The position numbers were made by a program, and so were the translations under genes. Below, piece after piece: positions 37,431-45,793 of a DNA stretch of 47,181 nt; the first letter of the stretch is position 1; each line of letters starts with the position of its first letter. The stretch lies in assembly GCA_017984435.1 (NCBI GenBank), contig JAGNZK010000021.1, forward strand, positions 1 through 47,181, read 5' to 3'. Source of the stretch: Nitrosomonas sp. (GTDB taxonomy: Bacteria; Pseudomonadota; Gammaproteobacteria; Burkholderiales; Nitrosomonadaceae). A model generated the notes under the pieces. It worked only from the letters and a program-made list of their open reading frames with translations. It made no database searches and was not told the origin of the DNA.

Positions 37431-37458
37431 ATTGCTAATAATTTGTATTATGTTAAAT
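37431..37458 (+). repeat. Left prophage attachment site, dif-like
   Basis: The 28-mer has the XerC-arm/centre/XerD-arm layout of dif: ATTGCTAATAA, TTTGTA, TTATGTTAAAT. The XerD arm is identical to that of E. coli dif (11/11), the XerC arm matches 7/11 and the centre 4/6. The stretch AATTTGTATTATGT is repeated exactly in the right site 8057 bp away. Identification as an XerCD site is by comparison with the remembered E. coli sequence. Confidence 0.75.
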
Positions 37459-37598
37459 TAAACCGCAGAAATAAATTTCGCAGAAAATATGATAAATTTT
37501 CTCAATTTCTCGATCAGCTAATCAATGGGTGTGAAAATACTCGTCTAAGTCTTTAGATCCCTTTTTCTGTAACATAAATCCAAGATACCCTCATATCC

Positions 37599-37708: not shown

Positions 37709-38137
37709 ATGAACGATCTAATTTATGGCATCAACATAGAAGAAATAGAGCAAATCACGGGAGAAGATCCAAAAGTTATAAAGAAGTGGAAAAAAGGAAC
37801 CAAAGAAATACCGGAATCTGCAATTAGGCTCTTAAGGCTATATCTCAATGGTGATGCGAGTGCTTTACTTGGAGATCAATGGAAAGGTTACCGCTTCATG
37901 GGCAATTTGATATTTGTACCTGAATGGAGGAATGGTTTTACTCCGGATGAAATAAGAGCTTTTTTTTGGAATGCTCAGCAAATTTCAAGCTTAAAGAATG
38001 AAATTGCTGTGTTAAAACAAGAGCTAGAAAGACGTAACAATGATATTGATCTTCTTGAAGTTAAGGCAGATTTCTATAGACGCCAACTGATACTTGAAAG
38101 CAAATTTGGCCTTATTTTACAGAGAACGTTTTCTTAA
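37709..38137 (+). CDS. DUF3653-type phage protein
   Basis: A 142-aa protein. The N-terminal 50 residues look like an HTH region (IEEIEQITGEDPKVIKKWKK), followed by the W-x-G-x(5)-L-x(2)-P layout of DUF3653 phage proteins (QWKGYRFMGNLIFVPEW, FTPDEIRAFF) and a C-terminal coiled coil (about 95-130). Such proteins occur in Vibrio VSK-type filamentous phages. It reads in the same direction as the repressor, from which it would lie downstream in the circular phage. Its stop overlaps the last bases of the convergent 411-aa gene by 4 nt. A regulatory role is likely but unproven. Confidence 0.7.
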   Translation: MNDLIYGINIEEIEQITGEDPKVIKKWKKGTKEIPESAIRLLRLYLNGDASALLGDQWKGYRFMGNLIFVPEWRNGFTPDEIRAFFWNAQQISSLKNEIAVLKQELERRNNDIDLLEVKADFYRRQLILESKFGLILQRTFS

Positions 38138-39369
38138 TTAAACTTCTTAAGATATCTACTAAAAACCCAGCCCTCGGCAATTTCACCTAATTCATTCCTA
38201 AAATTAATCTTTGACCAATTTCTATCTTTTTGAATAAGAAGAATAGTTTGTCCAAAAGTAAGCTCATCTACAATTTCGCTTTTCTGATTGGGTTTCACAT
38301 AAACATTAAGATATTTTTGAGAAACGAATCTAAAATATATAAATTCTGAATTATCACTAAGCAAAGATTTAAAAGAATTTAATTCTTTACGAAGTGGTTG
38401 ATCGATCTCTTTTTCTGTGGGTTGACAGGAAATTAAAGGTAGATGACATTCAGCAAAGTTCTTTATATACGTATCAACAATAGATGGGAAAACTAAATAT
38501 AGTGCAATAAAAGACAAGCTAATAAAAATATACCTTAACCATTCAGGAAGCTGATTAAATAAATCTGCAATCTTTTCAGCATCTTGTGATTCAGTTATAG
38601 AAGTAAGCTGTTGTTTGATAGCTTCTTCATCAAGAATATCATTACTTACACTATGAAACCTATCTTTGCTTCTTATTGAATAAAGTTCACTAATATCAAA
38701 AGAATTTGCAATTAAAGCCGCCGATCTTAAATGCAAATTGGATTCCAATACTAATTCGTTAAGTACAGAATCATTTAAAAATGATTTTATCCCCTGATTT
38801 AAAGAAGACTTGTTAAAAGAATCTAGTACACCTAAACCGCCCGCAGATCTTAAATCATTCTTTAATTTTTCTAAAGCAGTGCTCTCAGCAAGAGAAGCTA
38901 ATCCTCGTGTTGAATGCATTTGAGTAAACGCAGCTTCTGCTAAACCGATATGAGATCCTAAATCGTTTTGTAACTTTTCATATGAATTATTTACAGCAAG
39001 GGAACCTAAGCCTCTAATTGACTGAGAATTAATTAAAGAATCGACCACGCCTAAACCGCCTAAAGATCTTAAATCGTTCTTCAATTTTTCTAGAGCAGTG
39101 CTCTCAGCAAGAGAAGCTAATCCTCGTGTTGAATGCATTTGAGTAAACGCAGCTTCTGCTAAACCAATATGAGATCCTAAATCGTTTTGTAACTTTTCAT
39201 ATGAATTATTTATAGCAAGGGAAGCTAAGCCTCTAATTGACTGAGAATTAATCAAAGAATCGACCACATCCAAACCAGTAAATCTTAAATCATTTTGTAA
39301 TTTTTTGAGTGTATTGTGATTAGCAAGGGAAGCCAATCCTCGTGCTGAATTAAGTTCATCTATAAACAT
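38134..39369 (-). CDS. Repeat-membrane-SH3 cargo protein
   Basis: A 411-aa protein not recognised as a known phage protein. Residues 10-190 are five 36-37-aa repeats, each starting RGLASLA or RGLGSLA and containing KLQNDL or KLKNDL; two alternating types form a 73-aa higher-order unit. A helical region follows, then one membrane segment (about 279-299, YIFISLSFIALYLVFPSIV) and a C-terminal bacterial SH3 domain (about 347-411, VYVKPNQKSEIVDELTFGQ, NWSKINF, GWVFSRYL). No signal peptide. The likely topology is repeats in the cytoplasm and SH3 in the periplasm. It sits beyond zot, the usual place for phage cargo genes, so host defence, superinfection exclusion or cell-wall sensing are possible roles. 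Confidence 0.8.
   Translation of the reverse strand: MFIDELNSARGLASLANHNTLKKLQNDLRFTGLDVVDSLINSQSIRGLASLAINNSYEKLQNDLGSHIGLAEAAFTQMHSTRGLASLAESTALEKLKNDLRSLGGLGVVDSLINSQSIRGLGSLAVNNSYEKLQNDLGSHIGLAEAAFTQMHSTRGLASLAESTALEKLKNDLRSAGGLGVLDSFNKSSLNQGIKSFLNDSVLNELVLESNLHLRSAALIANSFDISELYSIRSKDRFHSVSNDILDEEAIKQQLTSITESQDAEKIADLFNQLPEWLRYIFISLSFIALYLVFPSIVDTYIKNFAECHLPLISCQPTEKEIDQPLRKELNSFKSLLSDNSEFIYFRFVSQKYLNVYVKPNQKSEIVDELTFGQTILLIQKDRNWSKINFRNELGEIAEGWVFSRYLKKFN
38831..39268. repeat. Two tandem 219-bp DNA repeats inside the cargo gene
   Basis: Copies at 38831-39049 and 39050-39268 are nearly identical (for instance 38876-39040 against 39095-39259 differ at only a few positions). Each encodes one 73-aa double repeat of the 411-aa protein. 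The near identity at DNA level indicates recent duplication or gene conversion, and copy number may vary between strains. Confidence 0.85.
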
Positions 39370-40080: not shown

Positions 40081-41043
40081 TCAATTAATATTTTTATTAT
40101 TTAACCATCCAAACCTAACCGCCGCCGCACAACTCTCCGGAACAATATTCAAGCGTTGCGCCTTATGTCCATAACAAACACAGTTCGTTTTGTTCTCAAC
40201 ACAAGCCGCAACCTGTGACCAGTCCACTTGATCCGATACCATTGATAAACTTGATTTGGTTTCAGTCGTGATGATTGGTTGCGAAATATTGACCGCTTTA
40301 ACTGGCTCTATAGGCTCTTGTTTTACTGTTGCTGATGCTGCGGTATCATTTAATGCGATGGGCGTCTCCAATCGCTCTGTAATGCGTCCATACGTGAACA
40401 TCGCCATAGCGGGTACCGCGAACAATAGAAAAAGTGCTGCATAGACCATTTTGGGTATGGCACGCTTCGGTTTTTCTAAATGAAGGCTGGCTGAATAGTA
40501 AAGTTCGAAGGCTTTCTTTTCGATGTGATACGGTTTTTTGACTGCATTCTGCCGATTGGTTTTCAGTTTCGGATTAGCGCAGTATTCCGACCATTCATAA
40601 CTTTTAGATCCTGACCATTCCTGACTTAAGTGAATATGACGATCTGCATTCTCCAATACGAACGGATGCACGAACTTTGGCGATTGGGTAATCACCAGGA
40701 AATCCAGGCCGTGCTTTCTGTGTTGAGAGAGATACTTGATATATTCCGGTGGATCTCTTAGATCGATGGCCGGCCAAGGATAAGCAGCTTCATCCACTAC
40801 AATCAGACTGCCTTCTACGATGTTGTTTAGTTTCTGTTTTCCTTCCGGCTCAGTTTCATCGACCGGTGTGCGTTCTGCCCAGGTTTTGAGCTTGGCTATC
40901 GATAATTTGATGTGCATGAGTTTCAAGTCAGGAATGCCGCACACGTAAACAATGCGATCCGCTTCCACAGCAGGTTTGATGTGGCTCCATACCGCATGAT
41001 TGGTTTTGCCACATCCAGGCGTGGCGGTCAGTATGATGATCAT
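40081..41043 (-). CDS. Zot-like assembly ATPase (gpI)
   Basis: The filamentous-phage assembly/export ATPase. The 320-aa protein has Walker A TPGCGKT at 8-14, Walker B IVVDEA at 81-86, a QHRKHGLDFLVITQSP segment typical of the Zot family, and one membrane segment at about 199-218 (MVYAALFLLFAVPAMAMF). The C-terminal periplasmic tail has four Cys residues (CVENKTNCVCYG, ESCAAA). Despite the name zonula occludens toxin, its phage role is virion extrusion. It overlaps the upstream gene by 4 nt. Confidence 0.93.
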   Translation of the reverse strand: MIIILTATPGCGKTNHAVWSHIKPAVEADRIVYVCGIPDLKLMHIKLSIAKLKTWAERTPVDETEPEGKQKLNNIVEGSLIVVDEAAYPWPAIDLRDPPEYIKYLSQHRKHGLDFLVITQSPKFVHPFVLENADRHIHLSQEWSGSKSYEWSEYCANPKLKTNRQNAVKKPYHIEKKAFELYYSASLHLEKPKRAIPKMVYAALFLLFAVPAMAMFTYGRITERLETPIALNDTAASATVKQEPIEPVKAVNISQPIITTETKSSLSMVSDQVDWSQVAACVENKTNCVCYGHKAQRLNIVPESCAAAVRFGWLNNKNIN

Positions 41044-41333
41044 TTCGGTATCACTCCCAGTTTAGGCAACAATAAAAAGGTCATGCGGAACGTAATCGCA
41101 CCCATGATGATGCCAAGCGCTTGGCCAAACCCGGCCAGGTTGATGATCTGCAATGCAAACGATGGGATGTTGCCGTAGTAGCCTTGTGCCTGGGCATAGA
41201 GCAATTCAAACGCAATGGCGATGGCGCCATAGCTGATAACCCCTATTCCCAAACCCATAAGTGCGCGAACCGCTAAGAATCCAACATAAGAACTTAAGAA
41301 AGCACCAAGGGGTATGATCAGAAGATTAAACAT
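41040..41333 (-). CDS. Minor coat protein pVI-like (DUF2523)
   Basis: A 97-aa hydrophobic protein with three predicted membrane segments (about 2-20, 24-45, 66-90). It has the size, position between pIII and zot, and composition of the pVI-like DUF2523 family, which caps the virion end together with pIII. Its start and stop overlap both neighbours (1 nt and 4 nt), showing tight translational coupling. Confidence 0.82.
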   Translation of the reverse strand: MFNLLIIPLGAFLSSYVGFLAVRALMGLGIGVISYGAIAIAFELLYAQAQGYYGNIPSFALQIINLAGFGQALGIIMGAITFRMTFLLLPKLGVIPK

Positions 41334-42646
41334 TATTTAGCCTCCGTGCTGCGTACACCTGAAACGATGTAGATGCCAGCGATTGACGCCAGCAGTAAGA
41401 TGAAAGGATTGATCATGATGGCGGTATCACAAATCGGTTGGGTTGGAATGGTGAACGTGTGACCTACGCCGGATAAAGCGACATCGATATCCGGTGGACA
41501 GGTGCCCTCTCCCCAACTGGTACTTGAGAATGTAGCCTGGACGTTATGCGTAGGCAGTTCAGCCGGTGGCACTTCATCGAACTTGATCTCGAAGGTCTGC
41601 GGCTTGTTCTCTGTTTGTGGCTGTGAACTGTAGCTGGTGGAGGTATTGGAGCTGATCTGCGTGTTGTTGTTATCGTACTGGATCTTGGTGACCGTTTCCT
41701 TGATGATGACTTTGCCGGGTTTTTCCGTGGTACCGGCATCAATGGCTTCAATTTCTGTGACTGTTTCTTGTCTGCCGGTAACATTGCCTTGTGCGTCTTT
41801 GGTAGGTGTTGATTCAACGCCCAGGCGTGCTTTTTGGTTTGGGTTTAGCGTTGGAATGCCGGTGGTTGGAATCGGTATTCCTTTATCGTTTAACTCAGGT
41901 ACAAAGCGGGCATCGTTGAGCAATGATTCTTTAGCATTCCAATCTGCGGTAGTTGTCGGTGTTGACGTAGGTACAGGTGGAACAAAAGTACCTATCATTG
42001 TGCCCTGAAAAAGCTCTGAATAAGATCCGTCAGATTTAAACCTTAGACGATAATCAAGACCGACAAGCGTTCCAGCGTTATAACGTGGCTGTGAGTCGCC
42101 AAACTCGCAATTAGATGGATTAGCAGCAAAACACGCATTGGCAGCTTGAACAGCAGCACGATAATTCTTGTCTGGATAACAGGGAGCACCTCCACCATTA
42201 TTGATGCACCAGCCAACATGGGTTTCGATGGCGGCTGTTCCTGTCGGGCTGGAGAATGTCTTAAAAACGCCATCGACATTGCAAATGTCAGTCAATTCAC
42301 AAACCAGTGATGCGGCGGTGATTGCCATGCCAACGGGACCACCCAGAACCGCCAGAGCACGAACGGCTTTACCGACTCTCGATACATCAACATCGGCGGT
42401 TTTGGTGATGTCAAAGGATTGCAGACCCTTGGAAGTCTGAATCATTGCGGTCGATGTGGTGCTTAATCCGGTTGGCGGTGAATTGAGCGTAATGCGCGAT
42501 GTGCCATTGCTGTCTGAGAATGCTTTGGTATAGGTACCGGATTCATTCTTGATCCATCCAGCCAGGTCGATTTCGCCTGGCTCGGCGGCATAGGATGAAC
42601 TTGCACAGAATAGCAAACTGATTAAACAGCGGTGAATATAAGCCAT
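41333..42646 (-). CDS. pIII-like adsorption/minor coat protein
   Basis: The presumed receptor-binding tip protein. From ATG 42646 it has 437 aa: a signal peptide (MAYIHRCLISLLFCASSSYA), a large Thr/Ser/Asn-rich extracellular part with paired cysteines (LVCELTDICN, CINNGGGAPCY, NACFAANPSNCEFG), a linker rich in Thr/Gln/Lys (about 270-370), and a C-terminal membrane anchor (INPFILLLASIAGIYIVSGV). The frame is open further upstream, but ATG 42646 starts the signal peptide. The upstream end overlaps the 25-aa peptide gene in another frame. Receptor unknown; pIII-type proteins are not conserved in sequence. Confidence 0.85.
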   Translation of the reverse strand: MAYIHRCLISLLFCASSSYAAEPGEIDLAGWIKNESGTYTKAFSDSNGTSRITLNSPPTGLSTTSTAMIQTSKGLQSFDITKTADVDVSRVGKAVRALAVLGGPVGMAITAASLVCELTDICNVDGVFKTFSSPTGTAAIETHVGWCINNGGGAPCYPDKNYRAAVQAANACFAANPSNCEFGDSQPRYNAGTLVGLDYRLRFKSDGSYSELFQGTMIGTFVPPVPTSTPTTTADWNAKESLLNDARFVPELNDKGIPIPTTGIPTLNPNQKARLGVESTPTKDAQGNVTGRQETVTEIEAIDAGTTEKPGKVIIKETVTKIQYDNNNTQISSNTSTSYSSQPQTENKPQTFEIKFDEVPPAELPTHNVQATFSSTSWGEGTCPPDIDVALSGVGHTFTIPTQPICDTAIMINPFILLLASIAGIYIVSGVRSTEAK

Positions 42647-42699
42647 AGTGCACCCATGAAAGCGAGAAGATAGAAAAAGTCGTAGAGCCAAAGTTCCAT
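42622..42699 (-). CDS. 25-aa hydrophobic minor coat peptide (pVII/pIX-like)
   Basis: A frame of 25 codons, MELWLYDFFYLLAFMGALWL then IFTAV, almost wholly a single membrane helix. Its ATG shares one base with the stop codon of the 104-aa gene (TAATG), a classic re-initiation arrangement, and its 3' end overlaps the pIII start in a different frame. Filamentous phages have pVII and pIX of about 32-33 hydrophobic residues in this part of the genome. Too short for routine gene callers. Supported by position, composition and coupling, not by a database match. Confidence 0.6.
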   Translation of the reverse strand: MELWLYDFFYLLAFMGALWLIFTAV

Positions 42700-43410: not shown

Positions 43411-44430
43411 TCACTCCCCTACTGCTTTTAAGTGTGGAATGTCATCTTCCAGGCTGTACCATTCCGGCATTGATAGAGGTTTCATTTCTACTATGCGAAC
43501 CTTGACCGGGAAAGTTTCGATATTTCGCGGTTCGGTAATATCGATACCGTAATCGCGCAAGATTCGCGCGTGACGATAAAAAGTACCATTGCTTAACAAT
43601 TGTCTGAGATCCTGTCCTGCCATCCATGCCGCCGCATGTACTCTGCTTTTTGTCGGTATTGCATCCAAAATGTCCGGCTCGTCACTGCGATCAACGGCGT
43701 TGAAGATTTCAGTTTGTTCATGAAAAATCTTAACAAGTTTTTCATCACTGATTTTGTTAATTTCCATCATGTCGAGATCGTTTAAGAGTCTACGTTTCAG
43801 TTCAATTTCCACTCGAACCACTCCTTGTTCTTTACACCATAAATAAGTTGGATCATCTTCTGCACATCCATGTTTTAGCATTTCGATGTGCTTGATATAG
43901 GCTTTTAGCATGTGCCGGGAATTTACCCACCAGACTGACTCATCCCCTGCCCGGCCTTTCTTCATTCTTGATACTGAACGGGTAGCAAGCCAGCGTATTA
44001 GGTGCCTTGCCTGTGATTCTGAACCCGTCGCAAAATTGGCGGTAAGGTCGATGCGAGATACTCGCGCCGATGGTGCCCCTGACTCACCAATTGCATGCCC
44101 AACTTTTCCGGCATTGAAAGCTGGTAGGCTTCTAGCCAGCAATATTCGATTACATTTTCTAAGGGTTTCCTGCCATCCACAATTGAACAGGTTGTCTTTG
44201 CGAGAAAACCTGCCCACGTTTCCACTAAGTGATATATGTCTACCGTCACTTTTGATACGTAGGCTGGTTTCATGAGACCCTGAAAAATTCGCGGCGCGAA
44301 CTCTTTCAAAACGAGCATTTCCAAGGGGATCGTAGTCGACATTGATTCCGCCGGTGTAGATGGGGAACGGTTCCGACTCTGTATGTAACTGAGAAATGGT
44401 GAGCCAATCGATAAAGATTTCATTAGCCAT
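43411..44430 (-). CDS. Rolling-circle replication initiator (RstA/gpII type)
   Basis: A 339-aa phage replication protein beginning MANEIFIDWLTISQLH, the usual N-terminus of the Phage_CRI/Rep_trans family. Other family features: the RFSRKDNLF region, SRIDLTANFATGS and VRVEIELKRRLLNDLD; a catalytic Tyr for nicking the plus strand should lie in the ARHLIRWLA to YIKHIEMLKHG region, but I cannot point to it with certainty. The frame opens 10 codons earlier at ATG 44460 without a good ribosome binding site. It is transcribed with the ssDNA-binding protein from the early promoter. Confidence 0.88.
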   Translation of the reverse strand: MANEIFIDWLTISQLHTESEPFPIYTGGINVDYDPLGNARFERVRAANFSGSHETSLRIKSDGRHISLSGNVGRFSRKDNLFNCGWQETLRKCNRILLARSLPAFNAGKVGHAIGESGAPSARVSRIDLTANFATGSESQARHLIRWLATRSVSRMKKGRAGDESVWWVNSRHMLKAYIKHIEMLKHGCAEDDPTYLWCKEQGVVRVEIELKRRLLNDLDMMEINKISDEKLVKIFHEQTEIFNAVDRSDEPDILDAIPTKSRVHAAAWMAGQDLRQLLSNGTFYRHARILRDYGIDITEPRNIETFPVKVRIVEMKPLSMPEWYSLEDDIPHLKAVGE

Positions 44431-44472
44431 GCTCGAATATTTAAGAGGTAAATTGATCACAAATTAATAAAA

Positions 44473-44505: not shown

Positions 44506-44820
44506 CTAGCCGTTGGATGCAGATTTCAAAACTGGCTGAGTTGTGGTGCCGGTCACAATCTGTGAAATTTTGCCTTTGTACAAAGATGGTTCAAGAACCA
44601 AATCCAAGGTGCAGGGATATTTGAAGGTTGAGAATTGATCGATGATGGAAGGATCAAGCGGCATTTCACCAGGTTCATAACCATAACCTTTCACGCTGAA
44701 TTTTGCGCTAGCAACATTTTCAATAGGGACAATTACAAAAATGGCACCCATATCGAACTGGTTGCCGGATTCCTTCGCTGTTCCTTTCATTTCTTTAACG
44801 CCAAGTACGTGGATTTTCAT
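44506..44820 (-). CDS. Phage single-stranded DNA-binding protein (gV/RstB-like)
   Basis: A 104-aa beta-rich protein in the position of gV/RstB, just upstream of the replication gene. MKIHVLGVKEMKGTAKESGN followed by DMGAIFVIVPIENV and a KYPCTLDLVLEP strand agrees with the OB-like helix-destabilising proteins of filamentous phages. AAAGGAG precedes the ATG. It should coat the plus strand and hold it for assembly. Family assignment is by position and pattern. Confidence 0.75.
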   Translation of the reverse strand: MKIHVLGVKEMKGTAKESGNQFDMGAIFVIVPIENVASAKFSVKGYGYEPGEMPLDPSIIDQFSTFKYPCTLDLVLEPSLYKGKISQIVTGTTTQPVLKSASNG

Positions 44821-45092: not shown

Positions 45093-45106
45093 GAACAAAT
45101 ATGTTC
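45093..45106. promoter_or_regulatory. Operator O1 (GAACAAATATGTTC)
   Basis: Inverted repeat GAACA-AATA-TGTTC. The identical 14-mer is found again 26 bp downstream. It lies over the start site of the rightward promoter and just downstream of the leftward one. Likely bound by the adjacent HTH repressor. Confidence 0.7.
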
Positions 45107-45108
45107 AC

Positions 45109-45138
45109 ACTATAAACAGAACAAATATGTTCTGTCAA
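45109..45138 (-). promoter_or_regulatory. Leftward early promoter
   Basis: On the minus strand TTGACA (45138-45133), 18 bp, TATAGT (45114-45109). It would transcribe the 54-aa gene, the ssDNA-binding protein and the replication initiator. Operator O2 fills the spacer and overlaps the -35, so a bound repressor should exclude RNA polymerase. Confidence 0.65.
45116..45135. promoter_or_regulatory. Operator O2 (ACAGAACA-AATA-TGTTCTGT)
   Basis: The second operator, with longer arms of 8 bp and the same AATA centre as O1. It sits between the -35 and -10 of the leftward early promoter. The longer arms suggest the stronger site. Confidence 0.7.
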
Positions 45139-45148
45139 GGGGAAAATT

Positions 45149-45517
45149 ATGGAATTAAAAGAATACTTAGAACTCGCTGAGAAAAAAGCAGGAAAACAAA
45201 TAGAACTAGCGAAAATACTTGATATCTCTGAAGCTTATATAAGAATGGCAAAAACAGGAAAAAGGGGTCTACCCGATGCAGTATGTATGATGCTTGCGGA
45301 TTATTTAGAGATTGATAGATTAGAAATTATCGCTAAAAGTAACCTCATCACCGAGAAAGATGAAAAACGAAGAAAAATATTAGAAAGTTGTATTTCCAAA
45401 GCTGCAACTATCGCGGCGGCAGCACTAATTTTCGGTGGTAGTTCAATGACTTCCAGCCCTGCTCATGCGGCTATGTCAGAAAACATGAGTGGCAACAATT
45501 TGTATTATGTAAAATAA
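45149..45517 (+). CDS. Phage HTH repressor (DUF3693-like) ending in the attachment site
   Basis: A 122-aa protein. Residues 1-60 form an HTH: ELAEKKAGKQIELAKILDIS as helices before the turn, EAYIRMAKTGKRGLP as recognition region. The C-terminal part has a hydrophobic stretch (about 89-111, AATIAAAALIFGGSSMTSSP), as in DUF3693 phage regulators, perhaps membrane-associated. AAGGGG lies 9 nt upstream of the ATG. It is divergent from the early operon, like rstR and rstA of CTX phage, with paired operators between. Its last codons (NNLYYVK) and stop overlap the right attachment site; in the circular phage the frame would run on for 32 residues. Confidence 0.82.
   Translation: MELKEYLELAEKKAGKQIELAKILDISEAYIRMAKTGKRGLPDAVCMMLADYLEIDRLEIIAKSNLITEKDEKRRKILESCISKAATIAAAALIFGGSSMTSSPAHAAMSENMSGNNLYYVK
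45488..45515 (+). repeat. Right prophage attachment site, dif-like
   Basis: AGTGGCAACAA, TTTGTA, TTATGTAAAAT. The centre is identical to the left site, the XerD-like arm differs at one base, and the XerC-like arm matches E. coli dif at 6 of 11. AATTTGTATTATGT is shared exactly with the left site. It overlaps the 3' end of the repressor gene and its stop codon begins at the last base of the arm. Confidence 0.72.
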
Positions 45518-45538
45518 TAAATATAATAACATTTATAA

Positions 45539-45793
45539 TCAATTACTTACAAAGTGGTCTTTTTTATAACGTTCCAACCTGCTTTCGGCGTGTGAATTTT
45601 GCCTTTTACTAAGCGCTCTACAATAAAGTCGCAGATACTCCATATCAACGCCTGATTCAATCAGGCGTTTTTTTTCCTTCATAACATACCGATAATATTT
45701 TCTTTTTTCAGATTTATTTCTTGTATATCGTATAAACCAATATAGATTATTCAGTTTTGAGAACATTTTTAAGAAATAAGAATGTAACGACAA
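45539..45793 (-). CDS. Small basic hypothetical protein
   Basis: An 84-aa, strongly basic protein (or 75 aa from the internal Met at 45766) with a charged helical C-terminal half (KKRLIESGVDMEYLRLYCRA, RLERYKKD). Not recognised. Its coding region contains a strong rightward terminator on the other strand (45647-45676), so either the sequence serves both purposes or the frame is fortuitous. Composition looks protein-like. It lies just outside the prophage. Confidence 0.5.
   Translation of the reverse strand: MSLHSYFLKMFSKLNNLYWFIRYTRNKSEKRKYYRYVMKEKKRLIESGVDMEYLRLYCRALSKRQNSHAESRLERYKKDHFVSN
45647..45676 (+). terminator. Rho-independent terminator downstream of the repressor
   Basis: AACGCCTGA-TTCAA-TCAGGCGTT (9-bp perfect stem) followed by a further run of T. 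It would end rightward transcription coming out of the prophage repressor gene into host DNA. It is not part of the phage, so this stop exists only in the integrated state. Confidence 0.8.

Follow-up and report, generated by a model that had tools for sequence, protein, structure and literature searches.

The window, the whole 47,181-nucleotide stretch of Nitrosomonas DNA analysed here, contains an inovirus prophage that spans positions 37454 to about 45496 and is bounded by two dif-like sites 8,057 bp apart (Table 1). The minus strand carries the replication, RstB-like, Zot and probable virion genes, and the plus strand an HTH repressor gene, located at the right end. The assignment to the inoviruses follows from G2P/Phage_CRI, Zot and CTX_RstB matches above cut-off in a profile scan. 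Near the left end, a 411-aa minus-strand ORF (38134–39369) has internal repeats, RGLASLA units as read by eye, and the ORF beside that end (37709–38137) gives weak DUF3653 and HTH matches; by eye, its start is like the reading frame to the right of the prophage in locus L010, which suggests a common left-end gene. The host encodes XerD (TIGR02225) and XerC (TIGR02224), both above curated cut-offs. Of six tyrosine recombinase matches in the genome, none is on the prophage contig, and no serine recombinase was found among the window proteins scanned, a subset of the ORFs. The element is presumably an inovirus that integrates at dif by means of the host XerC and XerD, without an integrase of its own.

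Table 1 Features of the prophage and its flanks in the window.
Feature	Positions	Strand	Description	Basis
Left attachment site	37431..37458	+	dif; XerC arm ATTGCTAATAA (genus-type), centre TTTGTA, XerD arm TTATGTTAAAT	genus dif pattern, sole match in genome
Phage-borne repressor tail	37454..37556	+	VKLNRRNKFRRKYDKFSQFLDQLINGCENTRLSL, stop 37554–37556; extends the repressor frame in the predicted circle	junction joining, relatives
Zot/pI assembly ATPase	40081..41043	-		profile and phrog matches
phrog_1242 match	41040..41333	-	named minor head protein	phrog match
Probable adsorption protein	41333..42691	-		position; best phrog matches without assigned function
Replication initiator (G2P/Phage_CRI)	43411..44460	-		profile and phrog matches
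RstB-like protein	44506..44820	-		profile and phrog matches
Palindrome GAACAAATATGTTC	45093..45132	.	two copies (45093–45106, 45119–45132) upstream of the repressor; likely operators	
HTH repressor gene	45149..45517	+	prophage form 122 aa; hydrophobic stretch, residues 81–97, before the site	phrog_638, E=7e-13; HTH_3 below cut-off
Right attachment site	45488..45515	+	dif-like; degenerate XerC arm	overlaps repressor 3′ end
Tail-like open frame	45511..45612	+	KIINIITFIINYLQSGLFYNVPTCFRRVNFAFY; phase differs from that of the resident repressor	left tails of L050 and L040a similar by eye

The genus dif pattern, allowing up to 2 mismatches, is present in 69 of the 86 genomes of the genus, and its only match in this genome is the left site. 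The whole assembly has two copies of a 14-base core, one in each site, and a window search with a 19-base core at up to 3 mismatches returns two matches, both exact, against 0.20 expected; two matches were reached in 2 of 100 shuffles. Because the genus XerC arm (ATTGC...ATAA) stands at the left and a degenerate XerC arm at the right, the left site is predicted to consist of the host XerC arm and the phage XerD arm, and the right site of the phage XerC arm and the former host XerD arm. In three relatives (L046, L048 and L055) the sites are oppositely oriented, and it is the XerC arm that faces the tail. Two attP polarities are thus seen in one phage family, with either the XerC arm degenerate (the window type) or the XerD arm (the TLCphi type), and the repressor reads through the site in either polarity. 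The XerD arm of dif is itself polymorphic among the 69 genomes, being TTATGTTAAAT or TTATGTAAAAT; integration puts the phage arm on the remaining full dif, and phages may therefore drive this polymorphism. In a survey of 69 dif left sites, 13 had an ORF running into a right site. The L161 element, like an additional right site found in the window, gave a poor site match (score −3.0); both were taken as chance and left uncounted.

Within the window, the 122-aa ORF runs into the right site, which overlaps its NNLYYVK codons and its stop. The left site carries the identical codons in the identical phase without the stop, so that translation from 37440 gives NLYYVKLNRRNKFRRKYDKFSQFLDQLINGCENTRLSL and ends at 37554–37556. 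Joining the repressor in silico to the phage side of the left site yields a protein of 154 aa, 32 residues beyond the 122-aa form. This is the arrangement that a sequence-only reading of the window had described, and each element of it was borne out: the coverage of NNLYYVK and the stop by the right site, the left site 8,057 bp away with the same codons and frame, and the extension to 154 aa. Its placing of attP inside the repressor with the short form in the prophage, the geometry of mycobacteriophage BPs, likewise agrees with the sequence and the predicted junction, and its caveat that an open run of 33 codons is not rare by chance was justified: we estimate the chance of 34 open codons after the junction at 0.09 with the composition of the left flank and 0.16 with that of the whole window. 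A single open run at such odds is weak evidence, and support therefore has to come from relatives.

The DNA to the right of the right site is unlike plain chromosome. It contains an open tail-like frame, KIINIITFIINYLQ..., of 33 codons, followed at 45647–45669 by a terminator-like hairpin, AACGCCTGATTCAATCAGGCGTT, and then T's; the stretch has 5 such terminator-like hairpins where shuffles have 7.4 on average, and so no excess of them. This flank is probably the left end of another, older and probably decayed prophage, and in the circle the hairpin probably terminates the repressor transcript. Very similar hairpins are seen after the left-end tail in L066 and downstream of the repressor in L008 and L021. 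Tandem arrays of different inoviruses at dif occur in L040 and L138 (both of genome G060) and in L065. All four repressors in the G060 and L065 arrays precede tail-like sequence that is out of their own phase, and the sequence to the right of a prophage can be the tail of the neighbouring prophage. The newest prophage in such an array would sit leftmost. Upstream of the repressor, in the place occupied by the palindromes of the window, the phages of L004–L006 each have a repeated motif of their own, differing between phages by eye. Such phage-specific motifs possibly define separate immunity groups, which would permit tandem prophages at one dif.

Searches of the genus returned 32 matches to the repressor, in 24 of the 86 genomes. 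The 22 named loci with this repressor comprise 20 titled Nitrosomonas and 2 assemblies labelled Proteobacteria and Alphaproteobacteria bacterium, which makes a Nitrosomonas host almost certain. Eighteen elements can be joined across their sites, 15 from the 32 matches and 3 from the viral contigs L065 and L068. A further 15 matches have no usable left site or run into a contig end (L009, L012, L013, L042, L044 (two), L047, L052, L053, L054, L056, L057, L059, L060 and L063; in L044 the left site is oppositely oriented), and two have broken repressors (L061, which stops before the site, and L062). At the predicted circle junction, the repressor stays open in its own phase for 32–42 codons past the join in 17 of the 18 elements, the exception being L068, where the own phase is open for 2 codons. 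Non-own phases are open for at least 28 codons in 3 of 36 cases, a threshold that was set after a first look at the joined elements, some of which are related or on a shared contig. Phases 0, 1 and 2 are used 7, 9 and 2 times, and 100,000 shuffles of phase among the elements averaged 7.3 and never exceeded 16 of 18, compared with the 17 observed. In the 15 elements of the same orientation, the variable base of the XerD arm is A in 6 of 6 phase-0 elements and T in 7 of 7 phase-1 and 2 of 2 phase-2 elements; the open frame implies this relation, so it is not independent evidence. Where dif and the repressor lie on different contigs (4 cases, compared in phase only), G050 and G018 agree, and in G046 the tail is open in phase 2, matching the repressor phase as read by eye. 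G074 fails: its own phase is open for 22 codons, a different one for 34. The pairing is a guess in G018 and G046, as each has more than one repressor.

The tails themselves carry a substitution signal. The ten most alike pairs involve five tails, those of the window, L039, L040b, L065a and L068. In nine of these pairs pS is 0.51–1.0 and pN 0.15–0.25 (differences per site), and the tenth, L039/L065a, is nearly identical (pS 0.13, pN 0.01). The next six pairs are weaker, with pS 0.25–0.84 and pN 0.33–0.45, and in L050/L040a pN is above pS. By this measure, substitution among the five closest tails is of coding type and the signal in wider comparisons is weak. Conservation, judged by eye, is highest in a basic stretch like NRRNKFRRKYDKF that adjoins the site, and the ends differ. 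Tail net charge is +3 to +9 in the 17 in-frame elements. On the other side of the site, a 17-residue hydrophobic stretch (mean hydropathy at least 1.2) precedes it in 17 of the 18; in L011 this stretch extends into the site codons, and L051 keeps the tail without it.

The sequence-only reading had proposed comparing the 3′ ends of repressors in free and integrated relatives, and the presumed free forms available read through the site. L069, a viral contig with 55-bp terminal repeats and probably circular, encodes a repressor 35% identical to that of the window, which continues through a dif-like site into a basic tail for 158 aa in total. None of the other loci among the 86 viral ones examined has a terminal repeat of this kind, so the probable-circle evidence near the window amounts to one case; a search with its repressor returned L069 itself only. 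Farther afield, the gene reads through the site in the circular-marked records of XacF1, phiXv2, phiLf, SHP2, Cf2 and SMA6, with 22–30 residues after the core in the last five; the SMA6 record is labelled proviral genome and the phiLf record is unverified. The records of phiXv2 and Cf2 annotate attP inside the gene. Phage WC36-1 (unverified, linear record) reads through a similar core, and SMA7 is not counted because its record ends at the site. The window repressor has no match at E 0.01 in the phage collection, XacF1 included, and its resemblance to the XacF1-type regulator is one of architecture.

A second group, 79 viral contigs with an XacF1/SHP2-type repressor, repeats the pattern of phase. 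A conserved tail stands directly after the upstream dif core in 45 of the 79, in the phase of the repressor in 44 of these 45 (the exception is L268). Clustering the contigs on the repressor N-part at 90% leaves 20 clusters, of which 19 agree in phase, compared with a shuffled mean of 7.5 and maximum of 17. The tail is already fused to the repressor in four contigs (L212, L236, L256 and L283), and no tail was seen in 30. In the unfused contigs, the repressor frame continues past the core for 0 to 196 codons into mostly differing sequence. Beyond this group, phrog_638 loci from other genera of the order have a dif-like core (up to 1 mismatch, from 150 bases before the stop to 60 after it) in 19 of 29, at or before the stop in 14 and 5–18 codons after it in 5, and control windows from the same loci have one in 3 of 587. 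In at least 4 of the ten coreless loci (L197, L204, L207, perhaps L206) the frame is wrong or the ORF start, near a contig end, is unreliable, and the phrog_638 profile is broad, also matching 3 of 14 control genomes.

Integrated repressors end in diverse ways. In the prophage form of the Nitrosomonas elements, the stop falls 0–2 codons past the join in 12 of 18, and the other 6 read on for 6–34 codons. The earlier claim that the junction supplies the stop thus stands for the window and for these 12 elements and fails for the other 6, as it does for the long read-through frames of the second group; a junction stop is common, not universal. We reject a fixed truncation length as the essential feature, because the C-termini joined to the repressor vary.

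The sequence-only reading knew of no such description for inoviruses, but one exists for Ralstonia phage phiRSS0 (PMC3816273; see also PMC4471427, and PMC5666396 on XacF1). Like the window phage, which presumably does so, phiRSS0 is an inovirus that uses host XerCD; its dif attP sits at the 3′ end of a repressor-like gene of the HTH type (PMC3816273, PMC4471427). A new stop upon integration shortens its ORF13 from 156 to 130 aa (Yamada 2013, citing a manuscript in preparation; PMC3816273). Yamada 2013 proposes distinct functions for the long and short ORF13, of which the truncated form would hold the prophage and confer immunity, and the phiRSS0 lysogen is resistant to phiRSS0 (PMC3816273). 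In the passages cited, the case is a single phage without comparative or selection evidence, and it is likened to the window here by description, not by sequence. The idea is already known, having been proposed in 2013, and the present addition is comparative support. Among the titles and abstracts retrieved from the open-licence literature, we saw none that treats this switch comparatively and none that is devoted to inoviruses of Nitrosomonas. Yamada 2013 also describes phiRSM, whose repressor ORF15 is unaltered by integration, yet whose lysogens seldom make phage (PMC3816273); such a switch is therefore not necessary for a quiet lysogen.

Other known systems share parts of the arrangement. 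In XacF1, attP lies in ORF12, which integration splits (PMC5666396, PMC4076744), and without the 5′ part of ORF12 the integrated state is unstable, although the authors note that the altered sequence beside attP could also explain delayed integration (PMC5666396). XacF1/Cf1c ORF12 resembles the window gene: each is an HTH regulator gene whose interior contains attP, preceded by a hydrophobic stretch and followed by a tail. Unlike in the window, the XacF1 site is oppositely oriented, as in L046, L048 and L055, and the XacF1 tail is hydrophobic with a basic end. TLCphi also integrates at dif through host XerC and XerD with one attP arm degenerate, and does so reversibly; its degenerate arm is XerD, that of the window phage XerC, a mirror image (PMC4246890). 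The tested precedent for an attP within a repressor is mycobacteriophage BPs, whose gp33 goes from 136 to 103 aa upon integration, the prophage form being 33 residues shorter at the C-terminus (PMC4557955). BPs has its own integrase gene beside the repressor, whereas the window contig has no tyrosine-recombinase match.

Taken together, these observations suggest a switch in which the repressor C-terminus differs between circle and prophage. The attP, dif-like and presumably used by host XerC/XerD, would lie inside the repressor gene, so that in the free circle the gene would read through the site to give the long, 154-aa repressor with its basic C-terminal tail, which selection keeps, and keeps in phase. 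Insertion into the chromosomal dif would strand the tail at the far end of the prophage and join the repressor to whatever lies to the right of dif, in the window an immediate stop that gives 122 aa. Integration thus parts the repressor from a selected tail; and as the C-terminus of the prophage form looks unconstrained, the tail would have to act in the free state. There it would most likely restrain the repressor, through instability, mislocation or weaker repression, so that the replicating circle is not shut down. Loss of the tail would leave a constitutively active repressor, a silent prophage and an immune cell. That the long and short forms exist as predicted from sequence is very likely. 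For the complete mechanism, in which the short form is the repressor that locks lysogeny, we put the probability at roughly 0.6: excision at the two sites, expression, the identity of the repressing form and the action of the tail are all inferred. The proposal that loss of the tail activates the repressor, and that the tailless form would lock lysogeny, is helped by the resistance of the phiRSS0 lysogen and by the XacF1 ORF12 deletion.

The opposite polarity deserves to be weighed first. The tail could be a positive functional part, with the long form serving as the full repressor or as a host-gene regulator needed in the free state, and truncation weakening it, so that the prophage would be leaky and able to restart replication. 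Tails as basic as these could add a DNA- or membrane-binding element, and full-length ORF13 of phiRSS0 has been suggested to regulate host genes (Yamada 2013, PMC3816273). However, the phiRSS0 lysogen is resistant despite its truncated ORF13, and ORF12 of XacF1 stabilizes the prophage, which suggests that a tailless form works; we regard the positive role as unlikely. About equally unlikely is the special case of the restraining tail in which it acts exactly as in BPs, as a C-terminal degradation tag. The geometry is the same and the lengths are nearly equal (136 to 103 aa in BPs, 154 to 122 in the window), and some tails have small nonpolar ends (DGAAAA in L069, RHGA in SHP2, RLAC in L051 and L058). 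In BPs, degradation of the long form through an ssrA-like tag has been shown experimentally (PMC4557955), whereas no such tag is evident in the window-type tails: the ends are not common to them (RLSL in the window, SISH, TISK and NSN in others), and the best-conserved part adjoins the site, not the end. No common ssrA-like end was found by eye among the Nitrosomonas and circular-phage tails, and a shared degron is therefore not evident.

Two readings that deny a fusion fare far worse. The tail might be a separate small gene that starts within the site, as phase-1 tails directly follow an ATG in the site and both phase-2 elements have an in-phase TTG in the core (by eye), but phase-0 junctions are open too, with no ATG, GTG or TTG inside the core by eye, and the phase of the tail tracks that of the repressor, which makes such a gene highly improbable. 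Chance overlap of site and stop with an open frame, for which one could cite the commonness of a single 34-codon run and the coding signal that is weak beyond the five closest tails and absent in one pair, is the least probable of all, being disfavoured by the phase matching in both groups (17 of 18 elements over three phases, 19 of 20 clusters) and by the coding-type substitution among the closest tails.

A restraining tail lost on integration may have a wider reach. We advance tentatively, at somewhat less than even odds, that a single integration-sensing switch is common to the inoviruses that integrate at dif in many proteobacteria, in which the repressor C-terminus reports whether the genome is circle or prophage, the tail supplied by the circle restrains and any host sequence releases. 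If this is true, the switch would be convergent with mycobacteriophage integration-dependent immunity without needing a phage integrase, would work in all three phases and in both site orientations, and would reshape the host dif allele at each integration. The 2013 remark on a single phage would become a testable rule with many natural replicates, and prophage annotations would misstate the repressor C-terminus of the free phage. A simple rule of lysogeny, in which integrated means a tailless repressor and hence off, would then be widespread in filamentous phages, with an origin separate from that of the mycobacteriophage system.
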